DNA of 46,140 nt, taken from contig CALWNX010000071.1 of the NCBI GenBank assembly GCA_944382925.1, forward strand, positions 1-46,140. The letters run 5' to 3'. The stretch is from an uncultured Clostridia bacterium. GTDB taxonomy: Bacteria > Bacillota > Clostridia > Peptostreptococcales > Anaerovoracaceae. Positions 3,251 to 22,914 of this stretch are shown here, one piece after another (within the stretch, counting starts at the first letter, position 1; the number at the start of each line of letters is the position of its first letter). The position numbers and the translations under genes were made by a program. The notes beneath the pieces are model-generated. The model was not told the DNA's origin, did no database searches, and was given only the letters and a program-made list of their open reading frames with translations.

Positions 3251-3337
3251 TAACGGTTGTATTTTAGCGCGCTTAATGGTACGCTCAAAGCATAAAGAAA
3301 AGCGCAAATGCTCATTCTACAGATAAGGAGGAACGCT

Positions 3338-4780
3338 ATGAAGAAATACCGTTGTCTGATGTGCGGACACATATACGACGAGGCGGCCGAAGGAAAGCCG
3401 TTTGCAGAGCTTCCGAACAGCTGGACCTGCCCGATGTGCGGCGTGCCTAAGTCCATGTTTCAGGAAGTAGAAGAAGAAAGCCCGGCCGTTGCGGCAGAGA
3501 CGCCGGCCGCCGCGACTGCCAAAACAGAGACGCCGGCCGCTGCGGCAGGCGAGGCAGACACATACCTCAGCGAATACGCCCGGCCGGCAGATGAAAAGGA
3601 AATCTACATGGCCGACATTCACGAAATGGCCAAAAGCGGCCGCAGCATCATCGCGCCCATGAGCACCGCCAAGCCTTTGCCTTCCTGGGACGACATCCTC
3701 ATCAGCGGCAACCAGCTCGACCCGCCGCCGCTTCTGGAAAGCGAAGAAGTATCGCTGCGGACGGTGATCGGCAAAAAAGCACAAAAGCCGCTGGTCATCG
3801 AATCGCCGGTCTATATTACGCATATGTCGTTTGGCGCGCTTTCCAAAAGCGCCAAGATCGCGCTGGCACGCGGCAGTGCGGCGGCAAAGACGGCTATGGC
3901 CAGCGGTGAAGGCGGCATTCTGCCGGAAGAAAAAGCAGCCGCCTACAAATATATCTTTGAAATCATCCCTAACATGTACAGCGTCAGCGACGAAAACCTG
4001 CGCGCAGCAGACGCCATCGAGATCAAGATCGGCCAGGGTACCAAGCCCGGCATGGGCGGCCACCTGCCGGGAGCCAAGGTCACAAAGGAAATCGCCGCCG
4101 TGCGCGGTAAACAGCCGGGTGAAGACATTATCAGCCCTTCAAAGTTTCCTGAGATAAATACGAAAGAAGATCTGAAGGCCTTCGTCGCTGAGCTGCGGGA
4201 AAGAAGTCAGGGCCGTCCTGTAGGCATCAAGCTGGCTGCCGGGCGCATCGAAGCCGACATGGCCTTTGCCGTCTATGCTGAGCCTGATTTCATCACCATC
4301 GACGGACGCGGCGGCGCTACCGGCGCAAGTCCGAAATATATCCGCGATTCCACCTCTGTGCCGACCATATATGCGCTCTACCGGGCCAGAAAATATCTCG
4401 ACGAGCATGCGCCGGACATCGACCTGGTGATCACCGGCGGCTTCCGCGTTTCCGGCGATATTGCCAAGGCGCTGGCCATGGGCGCCTGCGCAGTCGCCAT
4501 CGGTACCGCGGCGATGATCGCTATCGCCTGCCAGCAGTACAGGATCTGTCAGAGCGGTCGCTGCCCTGTCGGTGTCGCCACGCAGGATCCGGAGCTTGAA
4601 AAACGTCTGGATATAGAAAAGTCAGCCCGTAGGCTGACTAACTATCTGACGGTGATCAACGATGAGCTGGCGACCTTTGCCCGCATCACCGGTCATCACG
4701 ATATTCACCAGCTGAGCAAAAAAGATATTTTTACCACCAGCCGGGAGATTTCTGAGTACACGGACATCCCTCACGCCTAG
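3338..4780 (+). CDS. Rubredoxin / FMN-binding glutamate-synthase-domain fusion protein
   Basis: A 480-residue protein. Residues 1-40 form a rubredoxin-like iron site (Cys6, Cys9, Cys31, Cys34 in CLMCG...CPMCG). A low-complexity Ala/Glu/Pro/Thr linker with repeated ETPAA follows. From about residue 95 the protein matches the FMN-binding synthase domain of glutamate synthase large subunits: SFGALSKSA, GEGG, IKIGQGTKPGMGGHLPG, a Lys in VGIKLAAG, DGRGGATGASP, GGFRVSGDIAKALAMGA. Near the C-terminus CQQYRICQSGRC has the C-X5-C-X4-C spacing of the [3Fe-4S] site. The glutaminase domain and a GltD partner are absent, so the electron acceptor/donor role is uncertain. ATG 3338 is chosen because AAGGAGG lies 6 nt upstream; longer upstream in-frame starts lack one. 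Confidence 0.88.
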   Translation: MKKYRCLMCGHIYDEAAEGKPFAELPNSWTCPMCGVPKSMFQEVEEESPAVAAETPAAATAKTETPAAAAGEADTYLSEYARPADEKEIYMADIHEMAKSGRSIIAPMSTAKPLPSWDDILISGNQLDPPPLLESEEVSLRTVIGKKAQKPLVIESPVYITHMSFGALSKSAKIALARGSAAAKTAMASGEGGILPEEKAAAYKYIFEIIPNMYSVSDENLRAADAIEIKIGQGTKPGMGGHLPGAKVTKEIAAVRGKQPGEDIISPSKFPEINTKEDLKAFVAELRERSQGRPVGIKLAAGRIEADMAFAVYAEPDFITIDGRGGATGASPKYIRDSTSVPTIYALYRARKYLDEHAPDIDLVITGGFRVSGDIAKALAMGACAVAIGTAAMIAIACQQYRICQSGRCPVGVATQDPELEKRLDIEKSARRLTNYLTVINDELATFARITGHHDIHQLSKKDIFTTSREISEYTDIPHA

Positions 4781-12703: not shown

Positions 12704-12813
12704 GTTTGGTCCTCTTTTTTTATTGATCACAATATTTTAGCACATTTTTCTAAACTGAAAATAATATATAGTAAGAAAAAAGGCTCCTTTGCCTGACTGA
12801 AAGGTGGTTTTTT

Positions 12814-13167
12814 ATGGATACATCTCTGGTTTGCATTGACGTTTATACGGTAAACGAAGGCGATACCCTGCACTCGATCGCAGAAAAATACGATCTGCCC
12901 GTCAGTCTGCTGATGCGCGTAAACGGTATCGACAATCCGTACAATTTGCAGATCGGCCTGCGCCTGTGCATACCCGGCACCGAGGATCAGCTGCCGGCGC
13001 CGGCACAGCAGCAAAGCCGCGGCCGCACGCACAGGGTGGCGGCCGGCGATACTCTCTACTTAATCGCCAAGAATTACCGCATCAAGCTCGATGATCTCAT
13101 GCGCGCCAATCCGCAGATCGATCCTTACAATCTGCTCATCGGCACCGAGCTCAACATCCCCTCGTAA
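12814..13167 (+). CDS. Double LysM-domain protein
   Basis: A 117-residue protein consisting almost only of two LysM modules, residues 9-53 (YTVNEGDTLHSIAEKY...GLRLCIP) and 72-116 (HRVAAGDTLYLIAKNY...GTELNIP), joined by a Gln/Ala/Pro linker. LysM binds N-acetylglucosamine glycans such as peptidoglycan. There is no signal peptide, so the protein either stays inside or reaches the wall by a non-Sec route; in a spore-former a coat or cortex protein assembled in the mother cell is plausible but not shown. GAAAGGTGG precedes the ATG. It stands alone, facing the 13-20 kb operon. Confidence 0.8.
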   Translation: MDTSLVCIDVYTVNEGDTLHSIAEKYDLPVSLLMRVNGIDNPYNLQIGLRLCIPGTEDQLPAPAQQQSRGRTHRVAAGDTLYLIAKNYRIKLDDLMRANPQIDPYNLLIGTELNIPS

Positions 13168-13176
13168 ACCGCAAAA

Positions 13177-13195
13177 GCCGGCCGGAAAGGCCGGC
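13177..13195. terminator. Convergent hairpin between LysM gene and gatD1
   Basis: GCCGGCC, loop GGAAA, GGCCGGC. Read on the minus strand it is followed by TTTTGC, so it may end the gatD1 operon; on the plus strand no T-run follows. Confidence 0.45.
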
Positions 13196-13221
13196 CGGCG
13201 CACCTTTGTACATATGAAGGG

Positions 13222-14010
13222 TTAATACGTGAAGCCGGTATTGGGGTCGGAATACTCCTTAAGCCGCGTCAGGTAGGCGTCCATGGCGGCTTCTTCGTAG
13301 GCCAGCTCTGTGCCGGTCTTTCCCAGCACATGCGCAATGAACCAGCGCGTAAAAGGCGGGTTGAGGATCAGAAACGGACCGATGATATAAGTGAAAAAGA
13401 GGTTGCCGCGTCTGATTCCTTCGTACTTGACGTCGGGATTCATGGCGTAGCCGCGCTCTGTCGTAAACAGAGCCTGGTCGGCCAGATCGCCGTAGCCGAA
13501 GCCGAACACCGTCTTAAAGCCTACGATTTTAAGAGGCTCACTGCCGCTCGCGCCGGCAGCGTTCTCGCCGGCAGCGTTCTCGCCGGCAGCGCTCGCGCCC
13601 TCGGGCGGAATAAACTCGCCCAGATACAGCGAATTGTAGCGCTTGCGCGCCTTTCTGCGGGCGGAAAAATCAAGCAGGCAAAGCCCATCCGCTACTTTCT
13701 CGCCTTCCTCAACGATTTCGCGGGCAAAGATCTCGCCGGCGTTACCGGTCAGGAGAAAATTCACTCCCTCCTCGATCGCCGCCTCAAGCATCTCCCGGTA
13801 CGGCCGCAGGGCCTCAATCGCCAGCAGCTGGCCGCGCTCGGTCGTCGTGCCCATGTAGATGAGATCCGGCCTTTCCCTGGCGAAGAGCGGCTCGTCTTTG
13901 AGGCTCGTCTCAACGATCTCCGCCTCTGGCAGACAGGCCTTGAGATAGCGCACGTTGGCCAGATCTCCGTAGAGATTGCAGATCTCCGGAAAAAGAACTT
14001 CTATCTTCAT
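13222..14010 (-). CDS. GatD-like protein 1, glutaminase residues missing
   Basis: A 262-residue protein aligning by eye with GatD, the class-I glutamine amidotransferase partner of MurT: LFPEICNLYGDLANVRYL at the start, DLIYMGTTTERGQ, AIEEGVNFLLTGNAGEIF, GLCLLDF, and IIGPFLILNP near residue 210. In active GatD the third block reads ICGGYQFLG with the nucleophile Cys; here that position is Gly89. The catalytic His of the HGP motif is Ile210. So hydrolysis of glutamine is not expected. Residues 140-155 contain three AAGEN-like repeats encoded by a 15-bp minisatellite. It overlaps murT1 by 4 bp (ATGA) and is last in the operon. Likely a structural partner of the neighbouring ligase; role inferred. 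Confidence 0.8.
   Translation of the reverse strand: MKIEVLFPEICNLYGDLANVRYLKACLPEAEIVETSLKDEPLFARERPDLIYMGTTTERGQLLAIEALRPYREMLEAAIEEGVNFLLTGNAGEIFAREIVEEGEKVADGLCLLDFSARRKARKRYNSLYLGEFIPPEGASAAGENAAGENAAGASGSEPLKIVGFKTVFGFGYGDLADQALFTTERGYAMNPDVKYEGIRRGNLFFTYIIGPFLILNPPFTRWFIAHVLGKTGTELAYEEAAMDAYLTRLKEYSDPNTGFTY
13551..13595. repeat. 15-bp minisatellite inside gatD1
   Basis: Three head-to-tail copies of CGCCGGCAGCGTTCT, the last with two changes. The unit length is a multiple of three, so it adds five-residue AAGEN repeats without breaking the frame. Confidence 0.9.
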
Positions 14011-15389
14011 GCCCTCTCACCTCTCTCCCTGATCTCATTTTCAATCCTTGCCGCCACCTGATTGCACAAGGTGATAGAGTCGGTGCCGTAAAGGATGTAA
14101 ATGTCCGTCTTGCCGGCAAGCTTCAGCTTCCCTGGCGCATCCAGCTCATGCTCGGCAAACGAGATGCGGCTGTCGTCGATGCCGGCCATCTTCAGACGCA
14201 GATAATAATCCTTGGCCCGCGGTCCGGTCACGACGATGTTTTTGATGTTTTCACGATTGAGGAATTCAAAATCAGCGTCGTAGAGCCAGCAGACGTTTTC
14301 CGACCAGTGACGGCTGTCGGAAAGGTTGTTCATCATCAGGATCAGCTCCTTGTCGCCCGGCCGGCCGGACACGTAATCGAAAGCGCGCGAGGTGCCCAGA
14401 GAATTTCTGTCCTTGGACATCTGCTTGATGATGCGAAAATCGCCCAGCTCCTTAACGTCAAAGCGGCTCTTGACGATCTCGATCTTTTGCAGCAGCTCGG
14501 CAATCCTTTCGCGGCTGTAGCAGAGCTCGCGGAAAAGCGCCACGATCGCCACCACGTTGTATATGTTGAAAACGCTGTCGTTGAGCAGGCGGTAGCAAAA
14601 GACGCTGCCATCGCGCTCGGCTATCTCGATCGTCATCTGCTCAAGATCGGCGTTCTGCCCTTCGTAATCGCACTGCGGAGACTTGAAACCGCACGTCGGG
14701 CAGTAAGCCTTGCCGATGTGATGGTAACGGCGCTGCGTATACTTTAACAGACTGCTGCAGCGCGGGCAGATGCGCAGGTCGTTGACCAGGTTGATGCAGT
14801 CGGTCACGTCGGTGTCAAGGCTCTTGATGCCGAAATACTTCCTTTCGTTGTCAGGCGCGATGCTGCTGGCGATCAGATCGTCGCCGTTGAGCAGCAGCTT
14901 AGTGGCGGAAGGCATCTCCTCCGTCAGGATGCGGGCGATGTACTCAGGATGCCCGTTTCTCATGATCGAATCCCGGGTCAGATTGTTGATCAAAAGCCAG
15001 TCAGGCTTTATAGCCGGGAAAGTGAGCGGCGCCGATCTTTCGTCCATTTCCAGCACAGCCGTATCGTATTTGAGGCCGCCGAAAATCCCCGTCCCCAGCA
15101 CAAATGAAGTAGCCAGGCCGGTGTGGATATTGGAGCCGAGACTGTTGTTGAGGACGGCGATGCCGTCTGCCTTGAACATATCGATGGCCAGATTGCAGAC
15201 CGTGGTCTTGCCGTTGGTGCCGGTAATACCGATGACGCGGGCCGGCTTTTTTACCTGCCAGAGAAAATCGGGACATATTTTGAGCGCCACGATACCGGGA
15301 AAATTCGTGCCGTTGTGCCTGGTTATCTTCAAGGCGATGATGGACAGCTTGGCCGCCCACAGCGCCAGATAAAATCTCAGTCTTTTCAT
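14007..15389 (-). CDS. murT: MurT-like Mur ligase (copy 1)
   Basis: A 460-residue Mur-ligase-family enzyme. Residues 57-63 GTNGKTT form the ATP-binding loop. Cys208, Cys211, Cys230 and Cys233 (CPRC...CPTCGF) form the zinc ribbon inserted in the middle domain of MurT. The C-terminal DUF1727-type domain carries WLYDADFEFLN. Canonical MurT, together with GatD, amidates the D-glutamate of lipid II. Here the GatD partner lacks glutaminase residues, so the nucleophile may be free ammonia or something else. SD GAAGGA lies 9 nt before the ATG. It follows the ATP-grasp gene by 5 bp and overlaps gatD1 by 4 bp. About 35-40 % similar by eye to the second MurT at 17106. Confidence 0.85.
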   Translation of the reverse strand: MKRLRFYLALWAAKLSIIALKITRHNGTNFPGIVALKICPDFLWQVKKPARVIGITGTNGKTTVCNLAIDMFKADGIAVLNNSLGSNIHTGLATSFVLGTGIFGGLKYDTAVLEMDERSAPLTFPAIKPDWLLINNLTRDSIMRNGHPEYIARILTEEMPSATKLLLNGDDLIASSIAPDNERKYFGIKSLDTDVTDCINLVNDLRICPRCSSLLKYTQRRYHHIGKAYCPTCGFKSPQCDYEGQNADLEQMTIEIAERDGSVFCYRLLNDSVFNIYNVVAIVALFRELCYSRERIAELLQKIEIVKSRFDVKELGDFRIIKQMSKDRNSLGTSRAFDYVSGRPGDKELILMMNNLSDSRHWSENVCWLYDADFEFLNRENIKNIVVTGPRAKDYYLRLKMAGIDDSRISFAEHELDAPGKLKLAGKTDIYILYGTDSITLCNQVAARIENEIRERGERA

Positions 15390-15394
15390 ATTAT

Positions 15395-16393
15395 CTATTC
15401 CTTCATTGCTGCCAGCATCGCCCCGTAGGTGCCGAGGTTAAGCTTCGGATACTGCGAAAGGTCCTGTCCCGGGTAGCTGTTTCCCTCGATCAGCAAAGGT
15501 CCCTGCTCGCGGTCAAGGGCAATGTCCCAGGCCACATACCTGATCTGCGGCACCACTCTGGCAGCCTCGTCTATCATGGCGCTGATTTCATCCCACAGCG
15601 GAATCTTAAAGCCCTTGATCTTGGTACCCGTCTCCGGATGACACTCATAATTGTCTCTGAACTTATCATAGCCGTCCGAGGCGACAGTACCAGTCTTTAC
15701 GTCAAGGATCCCCGAAATGCCTCCATGGTTAAAATTATCCACGACGTTCTTGCCACGTCCCATGCGCAGACAGCCAGCGGCAAAGTTTACCTTATCGCCG
15801 CAGAGGATGGTGACGATCCTGACGGTGTTGACCGAGCCCGGGAAAAGAGCCTTCATCTCGTCGCTCTGCTCAACGACCTCTTCCACCAGAAAGGCCTTCT
15901 GCGCCAGCAGCTGCTCAAAAAGCTGCCGTGGCTCATGATCCTTCATGTAATAGATGTCGATACCCTTGCCGCAGGAAAGATCAAGCGGTTTGGCAATGAG
16001 CTTTTCCTTATCGGCGATGAATTTTTCAAATTCAGAAAAATTATCCTCTTTTAGCAGCAGCCAGTCTCGCTTGACAAATTTAGCGAATTTTTCGTTAAAA
16101 ACAGCCTTATCCTCAAAATAGAAGGCGTAGCTCTGATCGTTAAGCATTTTGACCAGATCGTTGTTCTTGGAAATCGTCAGTACGTTGGCGCGCTCGGCAG
16201 CGTTCATGTCGTACATCGCAAAGGTCTCGTAATCAATGTAGCCGGACCCGTATTTTGCCGAGCAGACCAGGCAGTCGGCCAGTACCAGCGGCCAGGGCTT
16301 GCCGTTTACCTTGCTCACGCGCTTGGCAGACTCCTTAAAACCTCCGTAATTGATATTTTTCATCCTTTTGAGAACAAACTTTAAATTGATCAT
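15395..16393 (-). CDS. ATP-grasp protein (sugar-transfer-associated type)
   Basis: A 332-residue soluble protein. Features of the ATP-grasp fold: IAKPLDLSCGKGIDIY (phosphate-binding lysine and glycine-rich loop, near residue 135), FLVEEVVEQ (adenine-binding strand), NTVRIVTI, and YVAWDIALD...LLIEGNSYPG near the C-terminus with the metal-binding Glu/Asn. This order resembles the ATPgrasp_ST family seen in surface-polysaccharide clusters. ATP-grasp enzymes form amide or thioester bonds through an acyl-phosphate. Placed between two MurT/GatD-like pairs (14 bp and 5 bp gaps), it likely adds an amino acid or amine to the same envelope precursor; this is inference. SD GGGAGAGAT before ATG. Confidence 0.8.
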   Translation of the reverse strand: MINLKFVLKRMKNINYGGFKESAKRVSKVNGKPWPLVLADCLVCSAKYGSGYIDYETFAMYDMNAAERANVLTISKNNDLVKMLNDQSYAFYFEDKAVFNEKFAKFVKRDWLLLKEDNFSEFEKFIADKEKLIAKPLDLSCGKGIDIYYMKDHEPRQLFEQLLAQKAFLVEEVVEQSDEMKALFPGSVNTVRIVTILCGDKVNFAAGCLRMGRGKNVVDNFNHGGISGILDVKTGTVASDGYDKFRDNYECHPETGTKIKGFKIPLWDEISAMIDEAARVVPQIRYVAWDIALDREQGPLLIEGNSYPGQDLSQYPKLNLGTYGAMLAAMKE

Positions 16394-16407
16394 ATCTCTC
16401 CCACCCC

Positions 16408-17109
16408 CTACTTCATTGTTCTTTTCAGCTCGGCCAATCTGTATTCATAAGCCTCGATTGCTTCTTTTTCAAAGCAGAGCCGCTCTTCCAGCCCCAGTCT
16501 GGCAAGCAGCTCCTTGGTAAAGTACGGATTGAGAATCAGGAACGGTCCCAGCGAATAGGTGGCAAAGAAGTTGTGCACATGGATGCCTTCTCGCATGGTC
16601 TTCGGATTCATGCCGATCCCCTTCTGTACTTCGATAAAGCAGTCGTCAAAGTCGCCGTAGGCAAAGGAAAACTGACTCTTATGCCCCAGCATCGCAAGTC
16701 CGTTATAAGTGCCGATCATCTGCGAATTGTGCCGGTCCCTGTCCATGTATCTTTCGGCATAAAAGTCAAAAAGTCCCAGCGCTTCTATCTCGCGCTCTCC
16801 GTCTCGAATGTAACAGCCGAAGATCTCAAGCGCATTGCCCGTCACCAGAAAGATGACATCGCCTTCGATCAGCTCGCGGATTCTCTCTTTATATGGCCTG
16901 AGGATATTGATGATCTGCTCCTGCTTGCGCTCCGTCGTCGCTCCCAGATAGATCATATCGACGTCGCTGTGGACAAACGCAGGCTCGGTATGATTATCAG
17001 TCCTGATGATCTCAAGCTGCTCCGGCGCACAGCGGCGCAGATACTCTATGTTGTAGGCTTCCCCGTAAATATTGCAGAAATCAGGAAAAAGCACTTCTAT
17101 TCGCTTCAT
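16408..17109 (-). CDS. GatD-like protein 2, glutaminase residues missing
   Basis: A 233-residue paralogue of the protein at 13222. Shared blocks: RIEVLFPDFCNIYGEAYNI, DMIYLGATTERKQ, VIFLVTGNALEIFG, LGLFDFYAER, and SLGPFLILNP. The position of the GatD nucleophile Cys is Gly91 and the catalytic His of HGP is Leu187. Both paralogues keep the same TGNA and GPFLILNP replacements, so the loss is an old, selected state and not random decay. It overlaps murT2 by 4 bp (ATGA) and is followed after 14 bp by the ATP-grasp gene. It lacks the minisatellite found in copy 1. Probably a non-catalytic subunit of the MurT2 ligase. Confidence 0.8.
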   Translation of the reverse strand: MKRIEVLFPDFCNIYGEAYNIEYLRRCAPEQLEIIRTDNHTEPAFVHSDVDMIYLGATTERKQEQIINILRPYKERIRELIEGDVIFLVTGNALEIFGCYIRDGEREIEALGLFDFYAERYMDRDRHNSQMIGTYNGLAMLGHKSQFSFAYGDFDDCFIEVQKGIGMNPKTMREGIHVHNFFATYSLGPFLILNPYFTKELLARLGLEERLCFEKEAIEAYEYRLAELKRTMK

Positions 17110-18479
17110 TTTGCGGCCTCCTCCTTTGCCCGTTCTACGATGCTGTCGCGCAGCCTTCTGGCCTTGCTGACAAAATCGATCTCAAACAGCACGTAAACCT
17201 TTTCGATGCCCTCGCGGTCGACATGCTCCACAATATCAGCCTCGTCCTCGACACAGACTATCTTTTCCGGCGGAATTCCCGCAAGAAGCAGTCTCAGCCT
17301 GTGGTTGAGATACATGTGACCGCCGACAATAATCTTTCTGATGTTGGGGCTGTTCAGAAACTCAAAGTCTGTCTCATAAAGCCATGTCAACGTTTCCGGC
17401 GGATGATTCTTATCCTGCAGCTCGTCCATCAGCAGCACTACATCCTTTGTCGACGGTTCCTTGGCCATATATTCAAACACCGTGGAGGCAGCGCTGACGT
17501 TCTGGCTTTTGGCTCCGTACGTATAGTACTTGATGCCGTTGAACTCCACGCACGTTTCTCTGATCTTCGTCACCTGCTGAGTCCTGAGAAAGTCTGCCAG
17601 CTCCGCAGCCGGCCTGCCCAGCTCTCTCATCAGCGCCACAAAGCCGAGGACATTATACACGTTATAGACGGCATCGGAGATCAAAGGATATTGCTGCCAT
17701 GCGCCCTCCTCGTTTACAGTCATCGTTCTAGCGGCAAGGTCAACCTCCGTAGCCTCATAGCGGGCCGGCGGCGTCTTAAAGCCGCAGTTCGGGCAGTAAA
17801 AATCACCGATATGGCGGTAAAGCCGGTAGTTATATTCGATGCGCGCGCCGCAATAAGGGCACACCTCGATGTCGCGGACTATATTTTCAAAGGGCTGCGG
17901 GCCGAAATCAGCGACCGAATAATATACCCTTTCGTTGTTCTGAGCCAGCTGCGAGCTGATCGGGTCGTTGGCATTGAGGACAGCCTTGGTCTTTTTACCA
18001 AGCATGTTAAAGGTTCGCTCCACAATATCGAAAATGTACTCAGGGTGGCCGTTGCGGCGCAGAGAATCCTTGCAGATATTGGTAACAAGAATATAATCAG
18101 GCTCTATCTGCCCCATGGAAACATCCAGCGTGCGCTCGTCGGCCTCCAGAACAGAAGCGTCGTAGCGGCAGCCGTTGAAGATATTGACACAGCGCATGAG
18201 ATTGAGGGCAAAGCCGGCGTAAAGATTGGCTCCCCAGTCGTTGAAGGAAACCCGCAGGCCTTCTGCCACCAGCTTGTTGTTGATCAGGGCGGAGGTTGTC
18301 GATTTACCGTTCGTGCCGGTGATCGCGATCACCAGCGGCGGCTTTTTGATCCTCCTGAGAAAGTCCGGGCAAAGCTTTATCGCCAGCAGTCCCGGCCGGT
18401 CGTCGCGCTCTCTTCCTCTCAGCTTGTACACCCACATGGCAAGCTTGGCAAGCCAGAGCGTGATCATAAATCTGACCAT
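17106..18479 (-). CDS. murT: MurT-like Mur ligase (copy 2)
   Basis: A 457-residue MurT family member. Residues 55-61 GTNGKST are the ATP loop, Cys207, Cys210, Cys229 and Cys232 (CPYC...CPNCGF) the zinc ribbon, and the C-terminal domain has VVLLMDELQD and WLYETDFEFLN. Compared with copy 1 the acidic stretch of that last motif differs (ETDFE versus DADFE). GGAGGT precedes ATG 18479, 10 bp after cls. Each MurT copy is translationally coupled to its own GatD-like gene, so two distinct complexes are likely. Whether either performs classical lipid II D-Glu amidation cannot be decided without knowing if a canonical murT/gatD pair exists elsewhere in the genome. Confidence 0.85.
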   Translation of the reverse strand: MVRFMITLWLAKLAMWVYKLRGRERDDRPGLLAIKLCPDFLRRIKKPPLVIAITGTNGKSTTSALINNKLVAEGLRVSFNDWGANLYAGFALNLMRCVNIFNGCRYDASVLEADERTLDVSMGQIEPDYILVTNICKDSLRRNGHPEYIFDIVERTFNMLGKKTKAVLNANDPISSQLAQNNERVYYSVADFGPQPFENIVRDIEVCPYCGARIEYNYRLYRHIGDFYCPNCGFKTPPARYEATEVDLAARTMTVNEEGAWQQYPLISDAVYNVYNVLGFVALMRELGRPAAELADFLRTQQVTKIRETCVEFNGIKYYTYGAKSQNVSAASTVFEYMAKEPSTKDVVLLMDELQDKNHPPETLTWLYETDFEFLNSPNIRKIIVGGHMYLNHRLRLLLAGIPPEKIVCVEDEADIVEHVDREGIEKVYVLFEIDFVSKARRLRDSIVERAKEEAAK

Positions 18480-18489
18480 TTGATACCTC

Positions 18490-19953
18490 CTATAATATAT
18501 CAGTCAGCAGCCTGGAAAGGACTTCCTTGAGCCGGATGATGAGGCTGCGTCTGTTGTAAGCCTCAAGCGTCAGCTCGTGGCTCAGCTTCATGTCGTTTTC
18601 AAAGGTTTCCTCCATCTGGCGGGCAAAATCGCTGTCGTAGATAAAAGCATTGGTCTCGAAATTGAGGCGGAAGCTCCTGTTATCAAAGTTCGTCGAACCG
18701 ACGCTGGCCACCTCGCCGTCCACTACCAGCGTCTTGGCGTGCAGAAAGCCGTTGTCGTAAATCCAGGCGCGCGCCCCTGAACGCAAAAGCTCGCCGATAT
18801 AAGCGTATGTAGCCCAGTAGACGAAAGGATGGTCGGGCATGCAGGGAATCATGATGCGCACGTCGGCGCCCGACTGCGCCGCCATCTTCAGCGATTCGAT
18901 GATGCTCTGATCGGGAACGAAATAAGGCGTCTGCACGTAGACGTTCTTTTCGGCGAAGGTGATCATGCGCATAAAGCCGCGCTTAACCTCCTCCTTGGGA
19001 TCCTCAGGACCGCAGGAAACGATCTGTACGCCGCTCGTGCCCGGCGCCGCCGCGCTGTCAGTTTCGGGCTTTACCACCAGCTTTTCCTTCGTGGCAAAGC
19101 GCCAGTCCAACACGAAGCGGGCGTTGAGCGCGTGGACGCTGCTGCCCCTAACCTTGATATGAGTATCGCGCCAGTAGCCGAATTTTTTCTTCTTGCCGAC
19201 GTATTCCTTGGCGATGTTATAGCCGCCCGTATAGGCGATTTCATCGTCGATGACCGTGATTTTGCGGTGATTACGGTAATTGAGCTTCAGGCCGATGAAG
19301 ATCAGCTTCGGTTTGAAATAATAGCCGACCTTGCCGCCGGCGGCCAGATAATCCTTGAGCACGCCCCTGGTCATGTAGCGGCTGCCCAGAGCGTCCATCA
19401 GCAGGCGCACCTCCACTCCCTGACGCGCCTTTTCCGTGAGAACGTCTATGAAAGCTCTGCCGACCTTGTCGCGCTTGATGATAAAGAATTCCACGTTGAC
19501 GCTCTTTTGAGCGCGGCGAATATCCGCAGTCAGCATCTCCATCAGGCGGCTGCCGTCGGTTATCAGTTCGATCTTGTTGTCCTGAGTATAATATGAGCTG
19601 GCGTAGACGTGATTGAGCTTGATCAGATGCGTCCACTTTTCTGTGCTCGCGCAGCTGAACTCGTATTCGCCTCTGTCCATCTGCTCCATCTGTCTGGTGA
19701 TCGCCTGATTGAAAATCTGCTCCTCGTTTTCGGTCATGCGGTTGATCTTCCGGCGCGAAATGTTCTGGTTCATCACCAGATAAAGCACGAAGCCCAGCAC
19801 CGGAATAAAGGTCATGACCATGATCCAGGCCAGGATCGCCGAGGCTGATTTTCTTTCGTTAAAGATCACCGTCAGGATCAGCAGGGTATTGACCACATAC
19901 AGCGTGATCGGCGTCGTAAACAGGTCAACGATAAAATTCCAGATAGTCTCCAT
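18490..19953 (-). CDS. cls: Cardiolipin synthase (phospholipase D type)
   Basis: A 487-residue membrane enzyme that joins two phosphatidylglycerols to cardiolipin plus glycerol. The N-terminus has two transmembrane helices (residues 12-30 and 38-60). Two HKD motifs are present: HRKITVIDDEIAYTGGYN near residue 230 and HAKTLVVDGEVASVGSTN near 405. Length and motif spacing match bacterial ClsA/YwnE. AGAGG lies 4 nt before the ATG. It is first in the operon that continues into murT2/gatD2/ATP-grasp/murT1/gatD1, only 10 bp from murT2, so lipid and wall-precursor chemistry are co-expressed. Confidence 0.93.
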   Translation of the reverse strand: METIWNFIVDLFTTPITLYVVNTLLILTVIFNERKSASAILAWIMVMTFIPVLGFVLYLVMNQNISRRKINRMTENEEQIFNQAITRQMEQMDRGEYEFSCASTEKWTHLIKLNHVYASSYYTQDNKIELITDGSRLMEMLTADIRRAQKSVNVEFFIIKRDKVGRAFIDVLTEKARQGVEVRLLMDALGSRYMTRGVLKDYLAAGGKVGYYFKPKLIFIGLKLNYRNHRKITVIDDEIAYTGGYNIAKEYVGKKKKFGYWRDTHIKVRGSSVHALNARFVLDWRFATKEKLVVKPETDSAAAPGTSGVQIVSCGPEDPKEEVKRGFMRMITFAEKNVYVQTPYFVPDQSIIESLKMAAQSGADVRIMIPCMPDHPFVYWATYAYIGELLRSGARAWIYDNGFLHAKTLVVDGEVASVGSTNFDNRSFRLNFETNAFIYDSDFARQMEETFENDMKLSHELTLEAYNRRSLIIRLKEVLSRLLTDIL

Positions 19954-19997
19954 ACTGCCTCTTTTTTCTGTCTTTACTCTGATTTTAATCAGAAAAT

Positions 19998-20006
19998 ATT
20001 ATATCA
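19998..20006 (-). promoter_or_regulatory. Extended -10 promoter for the cls-murT/gatD operon
   Basis: TGATATAAT on the minus strand, about 45 nt before the cls ATG, is an extended -10 (TG-N-TATAAT). No good -35 is seen, as expected for this promoter type. It overlaps the end of the MFS gene. Confidence 0.45.
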
Positions 20007-21233
20007 TGTTTTTCGCCTCAGCGCCACAAAAATTCCCAGAAAGCAGAGGGCGGCAAAGATATAAAAGCAGAGCCTTAGCGTCTGCATCAGCTGCTGCGGC
20101 TCCGCCTCATCAAGCTGCAGTGCGCCCAGCTTAAGCGCCGCTGCCGCCGTCACGACCGCCATGCACAGCGAATGTCCCAGCGAACGCATCGCCGCCAGCA
20201 CCGAGGTGGCCAGGCCATGGATGCTCTTATCCACAGCTGCCAGCGCCGCGTTGGTATTCGGCGTCGAAAAAAGCGCTGCGCCAAGTCCGCAGCCGGCCAG
20301 CAGCACGATGACCAGGAGCAGCTTGCTCTCCTGGCCGAGAAAAGAAAAAGCCGCCGTCACCACCGCACAGACGGCCATACCCAGGGCCGAAAGCTTCTGC
20401 GGCATGAGCCTGTCCGACAGCTTGCCGCACCAGGGCGAAAAAAGGGCCAGCACCAGGGGCGAGGCGATCAGCACCAGCCCTGCTTTCTGCGCCGGCAGGC
20501 CGCAGACGATCTGCAGATAAAGCGACAGCAGATAGCCGGCGGCATATACCGCCCCGTAATTGATCAGCGCCGCCAGAGCAGCGCAGGTAAACGAGGCGTT
20601 ATGGCAAAGCTGCCCAAGCGGCCGCGCCTGTTTTTCCTTATTTCCCTGGGCGAGATTCTTTTCTGCGGGCGGCAGCTTTTTCAGCGCAGCAAAAAAAGCG
20701 GCGCCGGAAACAACCGCAGCCGCGATAAATATCGCCCGCCAGCCAAGATAATGCGAACAGAGGCCGCCCAGCAACGGGCCGGCCGCCAGTCCCAGATAAT
20801 TGGCGCACACCGTATAGCCGAGCACCCTGCCGCGCTTTTCCGCCGCAAAAACAGTGGTGAGAATGGCGATGTTAGTTGCGAATATCATCGCCGCCCCCAC
20901 TCCCTGCACGGCTCTGAGAGCAAGCAACAGCCACATGCTGCCGACAAAGGCAGCTCCAAGCGCAGAGACGGTAAAGACGCCGATCCCTGCCCTGAGGATC
21001 AAGGTCCTTGACAGGCGGTCGGCGAGCAGTCCAAAGGGTATGGCAAGCAGCGCGCATGTCAGCATGTAGACAGTGGCGATCCAGCTCACGAAGGAGGCGC
21101 TGACCGCAAATTCCCGGCCGATTGCCGGCACCGAAAGGTTGAGCGCGCTGCCCAGAAAGGTCGTGATAAACGATGTCAGAAGCGAAACCAGCAGGCAGGC
21201 CCGCTGGCCGAAAGCACTTTTTTTCTTTTCCAT
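20004..21233 (-). CDS. MFS drug-efflux-type transporter (DHA family)
   Basis: A 409-residue protein with about 12 hydrophobic helices. The loop between helices 2 and 3 reads GLLADRLSRTLILRAG, the MFS motif A, and helix 5 carries GPLLGGL, the antiporter motif C; both point to a proton-coupled exporter of the EmrB/QacA-like family. The ATG at 21233 is preceded by TATAAT and six bases, with no Shine-Dalgarno, so the mRNA is probably leaderless. The frame extends to 21461 but that part overlaps the end of spoIVA. Substrate unknown. Confidence 0.87.
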   Translation of the reverse strand: MEKKKSAFGQRACLLVSLLTSFITTFLGSALNLSVPAIGREFAVSASFVSWIATVYMLTCALLAIPFGLLADRLSRTLILRAGIGVFTVSALGAAFVGSMWLLLALRAVQGVGAAMIFATNIAILTTVFAAEKRGRVLGYTVCANYLGLAAGPLLGGLCSHYLGWRAIFIAAAVVSGAAFFAALKKLPPAEKNLAQGNKEKQARPLGQLCHNASFTCAALAALINYGAVYAAGYLLSLYLQIVCGLPAQKAGLVLIASPLVLALFSPWCGKLSDRLMPQKLSALGMAVCAVVTAAFSFLGQESKLLLVIVLLAGCGLGAALFSTPNTNAALAAVDKSIHGLATSVLAAMRSLGHSLCMAVVTAAAALKLGALQLDEAEPQQLMQTLRLCFYIFAALCFLGIFVALRRKT

Positions 21234-21239
21234 ACTGCT

Positions 21240-21245
21240 ATTATA
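21240..21245 (-). promoter_or_regulatory. -10 box of the MFS gene, leaderless arrangement
   Basis: A perfect TATAAT on the minus strand ends six bases (AGCAGT) before the ATG. The -35 region is weak (TTGCTT at a short 14-nt spacing), so an activator or a different sigma factor may be needed. Confidence 0.45.
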
Positions 21246-21276
21246 AGCAGTTTGGCAAAAAGCAATCCCGTTTTTA

Positions 21277-22755
21277 TCAGATAATGATGCAGATAAAATA
21301 ATCCTTGCCTTCGTCGCTGATCTTCTGCAGCGATCTTTGCACCTTGCCTCTGAGAGCTTCCGGCACGTCGCTGAGCTTGCTTTCCATCTGCTCGGTAACC
21401 ATCTCCCGCAGCGATTTGCCAAAAAGATTGGTCTCCCAGATGTCCTCTCCTCCGGCTTCAAACTGTTCTCTAAGCGAACGCGCCAGGTCCTCGGACTGGC
21501 TTTCGCTGCCCACCAGCGGCGAGACCTCCGTGGAAATATCAGTCCTGATGATGTGCAGGCACGGGGCGGTGGCTTTCATGCGCACGCCGTATTTGTTACC
21601 CTGCTTAAACACCTCCGGCTTTTGCAGCACCATCTCCGAAAGCTTCGGCGCCACGATGCCGTAATCGGCCCTCCAGGCCTGCTCAAGAGCGTCCTTGATG
21701 TTGTCGTAGGAAGCTTTGGCGCTGGCGTATTCCTTCAGCAGTCCGAAAAGCTGTCTGTCGTTTTCGACCGGCGCATCCATCAGCTCTGCGATCACTTTGT
21801 AATAAAGCGCCGGGTCCAGGCGCGGCTCGAGCACGATCAGGCCGCTGGCCATATCAGCCCTGACGACCCTGACCTCTCTGATTACCCGCCCGTCGGCGAT
21901 CATGGCGCAGCTTGCCAGCACCTGACCGATCGTCTCAAAGCCGGCCATCCATTCTTTGACGCGAGCGATGATCGTCGCCTTGATCCAGTGCTCCGGCGGG
22001 ATCGCGTCCATGTAGCCGGGCAGCCTGAACTGGATTTCGCAGGCCGGAAACTGATTGATGAGCAGCGCAAAGAGCTCTTCAAAGTCTTCTTCTGACATGC
22101 GCTGGCAGCTGGCCAGCATCACCGGCACCTCGTAGCGCTCGCTCAGCTGATCGGCCAGCTCACGGCTTTTTTCGCTCTGCGGCGTGGCGGAATTGAGGAT
22201 CACCACAAAAGGCTTGTGCAGCGCTTTCAGCTGCTCGATGGTCTTTTCCTCGGCCTCGGCAAAGCTGCTGCGCGGAAGCTCGCCGAAGCTGCCGTCCGCA
22301 GTCACCACCACCGACACCACCGAATGGTCGCGCACCACCTTTTCCGTGCCTATCTCCGCCGCCCTGCTGAAAGGAATCTTTTCCTCCGACCACGGCGTAG
22401 CCACCAGCCGCTCGCGCCCTTCTTCCTTGTCGCCCAAAACGCCCGGTACCATGTAGCCTACGCAGTCCACCAGCCGCACGTTGAAGCATGCCCCGCCGGC
22501 AGTCGTGATTTTCACAGCCTCAGGCGGAATAAACTTGGGCTCCGTCGTGGTGATCGTCTTGCCCTCTCCGCTCTGCGGCAGCTCATCCATGATTCTGGTC
22601 TTTTCATAGGGGCTTACCATATTGGGAAAAACCAGAATGTCCATGAATCTCTTGATAAACGTGGATTTGCCAGTCCTCACCGGGCCCACGACGCCTATGT
22701 ATATATCTCCGCCCGCTCTGGTTGCAATGTCGCGATAAATATCATGATCTGTCAT
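21277..22755 (-). CDS. spoIVA: Spore coat assembly ATPase SpoIVA
   Basis: A 492-residue sporulation protein, full family length. It polymerises on the forespore outer membrane in the mother cell, hydrolysing ATP, and is the base of the spore coat. Residues 25-32 hold the Walker A GPVRTGKST; RLVDCVGYMVPGVLG is the following switch-like region, and the C-terminus ends in the hydrophobic FICIII that targets the membrane surface. GGAGGGG lies 5 nt before ATG 22755; the frame stays open another 98 codons upstream but that part is repeat-rich and has no start signal. Presence of this gene is the best evidence that the organism forms endospores. A sigma-E promoter is expected upstream, but I cannot place one with confidence. 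Confidence 0.97.
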   Translation of the reverse strand: MTDHDIYRDIATRAGGDIYIGVVGPVRTGKSTFIKRFMDILVFPNMVSPYEKTRIMDELPQSGEGKTITTTEPKFIPPEAVKITTAGGACFNVRLVDCVGYMVPGVLGDKEEGRERLVATPWSEEKIPFSRAAEIGTEKVVRDHSVVSVVVTADGSFGELPRSSFAEAEEKTIEQLKALHKPFVVILNSATPQSEKSRELADQLSERYEVPVMLASCQRMSEEDFEELFALLINQFPACEIQFRLPGYMDAIPPEHWIKATIIARVKEWMAGFETIGQVLASCAMIADGRVIREVRVVRADMASGLIVLEPRLDPALYYKVIAELMDAPVENDRQLFGLLKEYASAKASYDNIKDALEQAWRADYGIVAPKLSEMVLQKPEVFKQGNKYGVRMKATAPCLHIIRTDISTEVSPLVGSESQSEDLARSLREQFEAGGEDIWETNLFGKSLREMVTEQMESKLSDVPEALRGKVQRSLQKISDEGKDYFICIII

Positions 22756-22914
22756 TTGATCCCCTCCGCTTATTCTTACTGCTTTTACTGCTATAAAAAT
22801 ATATTGCCGCCGGCGGGGATTATGCAGGGTTTGCGCAAATTTCCGCTTTGCGCGCGGGTTTTCTTTTGAGGCAGGCGCGGCCGGAGCAGCCGGCAGGCGC
22901 GGCCAACACGCCAT

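Follow-up and report, generated by a model that had tools for sequence, protein, structure and literature searches.

Two clostridial MurT/GatD pairs that have lost the split glutaminase triad are candidate amino-acid ligases of peptidoglycan

We analyzed a stretch of 46,140 nucleotides from an uncultured Clostridia bacterium of the Anaerovoracaceae (contig CALWNX010000071.1; hereafter the window), which carries a six-gene operon in the order cls, murT-A, gatD-A, ATP-grasp, murT-B, gatD-B. Both MurT/GatD pairs of this operon retain the ligase residues of MurT and lack all three residues of the glutaminase triad. We propose, with a probability of about 0.6, that such triad-less pairs (hereafter MurT/GatD*) act as ligases that use ATP to couple an amino acid, which is probably a diamino acid, to the α-carboxyl of D-Glu in a peptidoglycan precursor. 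It is an even bet that they form a large, mostly clostridial family ligating whole amino acids or diamino acids to this carboxyl and constitute the missing group B ligase, the window operon being a version with two pairs and an ATP-grasp enzyme for the synthesis of a longer branch or one of mixed composition. The protein families are known; the triad-less variant and the composition of its operon appear to be new.

Loss of the split glutaminase triad in both halves of the enzyme

The glutaminase triad of Staphylococcus aureus is split between GatD (C94 and H189) and MurT (D349); there, the GatD variants C94S and C94G no longer carry out glutamine-dependent amidation, and MurT D349N supports it only at a severely reduced level (PMC6113224; PMC3266927). 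All three residues are missing from the window pairs. GatD-A (16408..17109, minus strand) and GatD-B (13222..14010, minus strand) both have Gly at position 94, with Leu and Ile, respectively, at position 189, and their motifs at the former active site read TGNALE and TGNAGE. D349 is replaced by Thr in MurT-A (17106..18479, minus strand) and by Asn in MurT-B (14007..15389, minus strand), and R348 is Glu in both. The nucleotide-binding residues (GTNGKT, E108 and N267) are kept in both MurTs, with Ser for one P-loop Thr in MurT-A, and both possess the Cys4 zinc ribbon and the MurT_C domain (PF08353; 68.6 and 85.4 bits, Pfam cut-off 25). GatD-A matched Pfam GATase_3 at 35 bits (cut-off 27); GatD-B fell under the Pfam cut-off, yet matched S. 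aureus GatD in phmmer at 8e-10. An earlier reading made from the sequence alone (the sequence-only reading) had named these genes, together with cls and ATP-grasp, and its names hold at family level in Pfam and NCBIfam, or by phmmer for GatD-B; in treating the pairs as functional MurT/GatD it overlooked the loss of GatD Cys94, His189 and MurT Asp349. Taken literally, family membership in Pfam and the tight operon would speak for two glutamine-dependent MurT/GatD amidotransferases and an ATP-grasp ligase forming stepwise amides on one carrier. Since all three residues of the split triad are gone, glutamine-dependent amidation by the window pairs is very unlikely, and we regard this literal interpretation as barely credible.

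The same loss recurs widely. Of 226 distinct GatD-like sequences of Clostridia, 168 have neither C94 nor H189, 50 have both and 8 have one; this set was collected largely with GatD* queries, and 168/226 is therefore not a population frequency. Among the 168 triad-less GatDs, position 94 is Gly in 160, position 95 Asn in 132 and position 98 Glu in 122, making TGNxxE the conserved motif of most of them in place of ICGGYQ. The MurT partners changed as well: position 349 is Asp in 40/40 canonical partners versus 10/113 TGN-type partners, and R348 is Glu in 97/113 of the latter. G58, K59, E108, N267 and the zinc-binding cysteines are each kept in at least 111 of these 113, and Thr60 is Ser in 8 and Gly or Ala in 5. 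At the level of residues, the ligase half of MurT is conserved and the glutaminase half is lost as one unit; the conserved residues show MurT as a predicted ATP-binding, carboxylate-activating enzyme. A different pattern was seen in GatDs of family f49 (loci L124, L127, L138 and L148), in which Cys94 is Gly but His189 is retained (IGLGFQ...HGP), possibly a separate route to glutaminase loss.

Loss of catalytic residues could also mean that GatD* serves in regulation or is left over as a relic, with MurT acting independently of it or the pair decaying. This is highly improbable. pN is ∼0.2 for all six window genes and pS is saturated, the two being given in place of dN/dS because dS is saturated, and the genes are maintained under strong purifying selection. 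Fifteen positions, N92 and E95 of GatD-A among them, do not vary across 44 divergent GatD* sequences. The AlphaFold model of GatD-A is of high confidence (predicted local distance difference test 96), and its best Protein Data Bank match is S. aureus GatD (6gs2_A; template modelling score, TM, 0.85). murT and gatD* are coupled in 73 of 80 named loci, which were selected by similarity to GatD-A and many of which come from metagenome-assembled genomes (MAGs), and S. aureus MurT is inactive without GatD (PMC3266927). Alignment and model together show GatD* as a folded GatD partner that, with the split triad wholly lost, is predicted to be no longer able to hydrolyse glutamine.

In the phylogenetic tree, 109 sequences form a single GatD* clade (SH-aLRT, an approximate likelihood-ratio support, 99), and a branch with support 84 has the canonical sequences on one side. 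The window A pair falls in a subclade of 28 rows and the orthologues of the B pair in a separate one of 26 rows; A and B are therefore old paralogues. One further GatD* match (L382; G914:C8:24197-24865) contains many in-frame stops (7 TAA, 6 TAG and 1 TGA), which points to decay of the copy or to a frame shift.

Triad-less pairs and the D-Glu position of peptidoglycan

The sequence-only reading had raised the question of a canonical murT/gatD elsewhere in the genome. The two MurT genes of the operon are the only ones in the window genome (1.7 Mb in 134 contigs, 93% complete), and no canonical GatD was found there. Likewise, a canonical-GatD model gave 0 canonical-strength matches in 64 genomes with triad-less pairs, and every second copy fetched was triad-less too (e.g., in Mobilibacterium, Baileyella, a Mogibacterium MAG and Lachnospiraceae). 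One pair per genome had been called usual, in agreement with a 2025 pangenomic study in which MurT-bearing bacteria are mostly single-copy (PMC11915815); two pairs are common among triad-less carriers. In terms of gene content, GatD* replaces canonical GatD in its carriers, the Eubacteriaceae genome G766 being an exception.

Neighbouring genes connect triad-less pairs to diamino acids. An EctB-type diaminobutyrate transaminase directly adjoins MurT/GatD* in 7 of the 80 named loci, upstream or downstream, at three separate positions in the tree and in two gene orders. The neighbours of ectB listed were MurT/GatD*, murE, PF14397 and NRPS-like (non-ribosomal peptide synthetase) or housekeeping genes; no ectA or ectC was seen near it, as judged by eye and by clustering, without an ectA or ectC model. 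Full-length EctB occurs in just 8 of 391 sampled Clostridia genomes, beside murE in 3, beside a PF14397 ATP-grasp gene in 2 and inside NRPS-like clusters in 2. A third triad-less GatD type was found in murE-murT-gatD*-orr operons of two members of the window family (L235:2-4191 and L236:4119-8849). The orr product belongs to the ornithine racemase family, and its substrate is not certain, because its scores of 394 and 339 bits fall below the cut-off of 480. The EctB and murE-orr operons appear to tie triad-less pairs to stem-peptide synthesis and diamino acids, adjacency indicating association, not substrate.

Mere presence of ornithine racemase was rejected as evidence: since Orr homologues are near-ubiquitous (57 of 61 relatives), only operon adjacency counts. 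A protein at L030 taken for EctB turned out to be an ArgD-type enzyme. A diamine (cadaverine or putrescine) transferase of Negativicutes was dropped as the preferred interpretation, the nearest named relatives of GatD-A being Mobilibacterium timonense (70%), Baileyella and Mogibacterium and not Negativicutes, which puts the window in or close to Anaerovoracaceae; diamines are possible as the amine used. At L243 (4344-7121), L244 (4384-7117) and L245 (4675-7435) an EctB-type transaminase adjoins murE, an arrangement that hints at stem peptides containing diaminobutyrate in these Clostridia, and EctB within NRPS-like clusters of genomes G637 and G509 (L180, L182 and L250) probably supplies diaminobutyrate to a peptide product. 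The window genome itself holds a tandem pair of ornithine racemase homologues next to genes resembling greA and lysS (L326, G000:C27, 1729-3855).

Stepwise ligation on a stem peptide, as put forward by the sequence-only reading, was right in direction, the gene families being linked to murE and to diamino-acid supply, and wrong in assuming glutamine-driven amidation. Its grouping of three ATP-dependent C-N ligases, most likely on the peptidoglycan stem peptide, gains support from relatives that link these families to murE. Action on another carrier (a glycolipid, or a teichoic acid or capsule precursor), with PF14397 and cls in that envelope pathway, would suit the naming of PF14397 for an association with sugar transfer and the place of cls at the head of the operon. 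We consider this distinctly improbable: MurT/GatD* supplants the canonical pair, with no coexistence in the 64 genomes scored, murE operons and glmM-like neighbours in Eubacteriaceae point to peptidoglycan precursors, and just 8 of the 80 named loci include cls.

Group B walls, in which D-Glu is cross-linked, have been catalogued since the 1970s. They carry an amino acid on the D-Glu α-carboxyl, the same group that canonical MurT/GatD amidates, and we know of no gene assigned to this bond. Acetobacterium woodii is reported to have a group B murein with ornithine (Kandler and Schoberth 1979). Its genome, recognised because it encodes a protein identical (100%) to the A. woodii CarD of known structure, has a sole MurT/GatD pair (L338), which is triad-less (GatD TGTTIS and LGP; MurT N349). 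Of 40 Eubacteriaceae genomes searched, 28 (including A. woodii) have a full-length match of this type, with C and H both missing, and no second pair. A published table places Eubacterium among the organisms with B2-alpha peptidoglycan (PMC11382707); in this type a diamino acid sits on the D-Glu α-carboxyl. The Clavibacter wall has D-diaminobutyrate as the bridge between D-Glu and D-Ala (PMC9603630). The correlation of triad-less pairs with type B walls covers one family only; a comparison aimed at Erysipelotrichaceae through L090 led to what appears to be a clostridial family, f198, and bears no weight here.

We infer the following scheme for MurT/GatD*. The acceptor would still be the D-Glu-2 α-carboxyl of a peptidoglycan precursor linked to lipid or nucleotide. 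The nucleophile may be an amino acid in intact form, or a diamine, held at the former glutaminase site where TGNxxE replaces CGGYQ; diaminobutyrate is the candidate for operons with EctB, and ornithine for Acetobacterium and the murE-murT-gatD*-orr operons. The bound amino acid would attack the α-carboxyl activated by MurT, with GatD* as an amine-binding scaffold, and the product, a substituted D-Glu, would then carry a branch or a cross-bridge as it does in group B walls. The two pairs might add different residues, or residues in succession, and the ATP-grasp enzyme might acylate the branch amine and so extend the branch, the least certain step.

Biochemistry of the S. aureus enzyme bears on the nucleophile. 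The MurT/GatD-C94G complex, devoid of glutamine-dependent activity, still amidates lipid II with free NH3 at pH 8.5 (PMC3266927). Because this complex ligates NH3 and MurT requires GatD, a Cys-less GatD can still be needed and can sustain ligation of a nucleophile other than the glutamine nitrogen. The same experiment would suit an ammonia-dependent isoglutaminyl synthase, in which MurT/GatD* makes D-isoglutamine from free ammonia of the gut or rumen and GatD* is a mere scaffold, and many carriers are indeed gut or rumen MAGs. We judge this rather unlikely, as the S. aureus enzyme shows no activity with NH3 at pH 7.5 (PMC3266927) and the former active site bears a new near-invariant motif instead of decay; EctB and ornithine racemase operons, two paralogues per genome and the same loss in Acetobacterium would all be left unexplained.

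Several points weigh against amino-acid ligation by MurT/GatD*. Free ammonia could be the nucleophile, given that C94G works with it at pH 8.5. EctB does not adjoin 73 of the 80 GatD* loci; it is also missing from the window genome (best match 7.6e-24), whose operon holds no supply gene and whose ornithine racemase homologues lie at unrelated loci only, beside OraE-like or greA/lysS-like genes. G766 has a canonical as well as a triad-less GatD. A missing Cys is not diagnostic by itself, because some otherwise canonical f49 GatDs without it keep His. Finally, the type B wall documented here is that of the genus Eubacterium only.

Comparison with known ligases

The closest known system is the MurT/GatD isoglutaminyl synthase (S. 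aureus 6gs2, S. pneumoniae 6fqb and S. pyogenes 9sq9), which shares with the window pairs the gene order, coupling, ATPase residues, Cys4 zinc ribbon, MurT_C domain and GatD fold. The window pairs differ from it in their missing triad residues, in Glu for R348, in TGNxxE for CGGYQ and in the presence of two paralogous pairs per operon. Their scores are also far below the NCBIfam equivalog cut-offs (GatD 49-64 of 450 and MurT 142-178 of 800). Because three defining features fail, the window pairs should not be filed as isoglutaminyl synthase. Group B cross-bridge formation in Eubacterium, Acetobacterium and Microbacteriaceae would involve the same predicted chemistry, an amino acid on the D-Glu-2 α-carboxyl, and the pairs of Acetobacterium and of Eubacterium-like genomes are all triad-less. 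The window ATP-grasp enzyme shares its fold and carboxylate-amine ligase class with RimK, Ddl and LysX/ArgX; unlike them it has no sequence-matched structure, and its type stands recurrently beside MurT/GatD* and EctB. In the murE-ectB and murE-murT-gatD*-orr operons of other Clostridia the same MurT/GatD* or PF14397 families are joined to diamino-acid supply, from which the window operon differs in holding no supply gene.

We found no description of MurT/GatD with cadaverine, type B peptidoglycan, ornithine or diaminobutyrate, nor any pathway of the operon's composition, in the open literature (subscription journals lay largely outside the search); the sequence-only reading had likewise known of none. 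Triad-less pairs offer a concrete candidate for the group B D-Glu ligase, with A. woodii as a cultured reference having a single copy. If the proposal is true, hundreds of gut Clostridia annotated with lipid II isoglutaminyl synthase would be mis-annotated, the D-Glu position sensed by host muropeptide sensors would differ in carriers, and glutamine amidotransferase pseudo-enzymes would have switched from ammonia delivery to amino-acid delivery.

The operon and its chromosomal spot

All six open reading frames lie on the minus strand (window 13222-19953), spaced in the order given by 10, -4, 14, 5 and -4 bp, in keeping with the gaps of at most 14 bp and 4-bp overlaps first reported. The sequence-only reading had suggested looking for the same order in related genomes, and it was found in G004, G005, L023 and L026, some of which are perhaps one species sampled in two collections; because it recurs, the arrangement is not due to chance. 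Mobilibacterium timonense also has A, B and the ATP-grasp gene. By its sequence and its recurrence, the six-gene operon is real and conserved. Promoter matches were no more numerous than in shuffled sequence. A candidate intrinsic terminator lies just 3′ of gatD*-B (13177..13199, minus strand), with a 9-bp GC stem followed by TTTT (minimum free energy z-score -2.5).

The first gene, cls (18490..19953, minus strand), encodes a cardiolipin synthase of the phospholipase D superfamily (TIGR04265, 518 bits versus an equivalog cut-off of 290; HxK...D motifs in the translation). With cls in 8 of the 80 named loci, we have no evidence for a functional tie to the ligases, which is unproven. The ATP-grasp carboxylate-amine ligase (15395..16393, minus strand) matches PF14397 (ATPgrasp_ST) at 170 bits, with a curated cut-off of 31.4, and has RimK, Ddl and LysX/ArgX as structural neighbours. 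GatD*-B contains a repetitive Ala/Gly/Glu/Asn loop insert, within which short near-identical DNA repeats (window 13545-13605) encode an AAGEN-like repeat; a GatD*-B homologue at L202 (genome G009) has a long acidic/alanine insert at the same loop position.

In the window genus, the chromosomal spot spoIVA-mfs-cls-[cassette]-LysM-M50-clpB has variable content: A, ATP-grasp and B in G000, G004 and G005; ATP-grasp and B in G001; A alone in G002; and in G003 a third triad-less pair, found at the same spot in G033 of the same family. Differing triad-less cassettes between spoIVA/mfs/cls and LysM/M50/clpB are seen in window 12800-22800 and in related species at L232, L234, L238 and L239, and the spot resembles an exchangeable cassette for wall chemistry. 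For the link to sporulation raised by the sequence-only reading, there is no evidence beyond neighbouring spoIVA. A scan of viral contigs gave no relatives. Elsewhere in the window, positions 3308-4780 encode a protein resembling glutamate synthase, with a rubredoxin domain at the N terminus.

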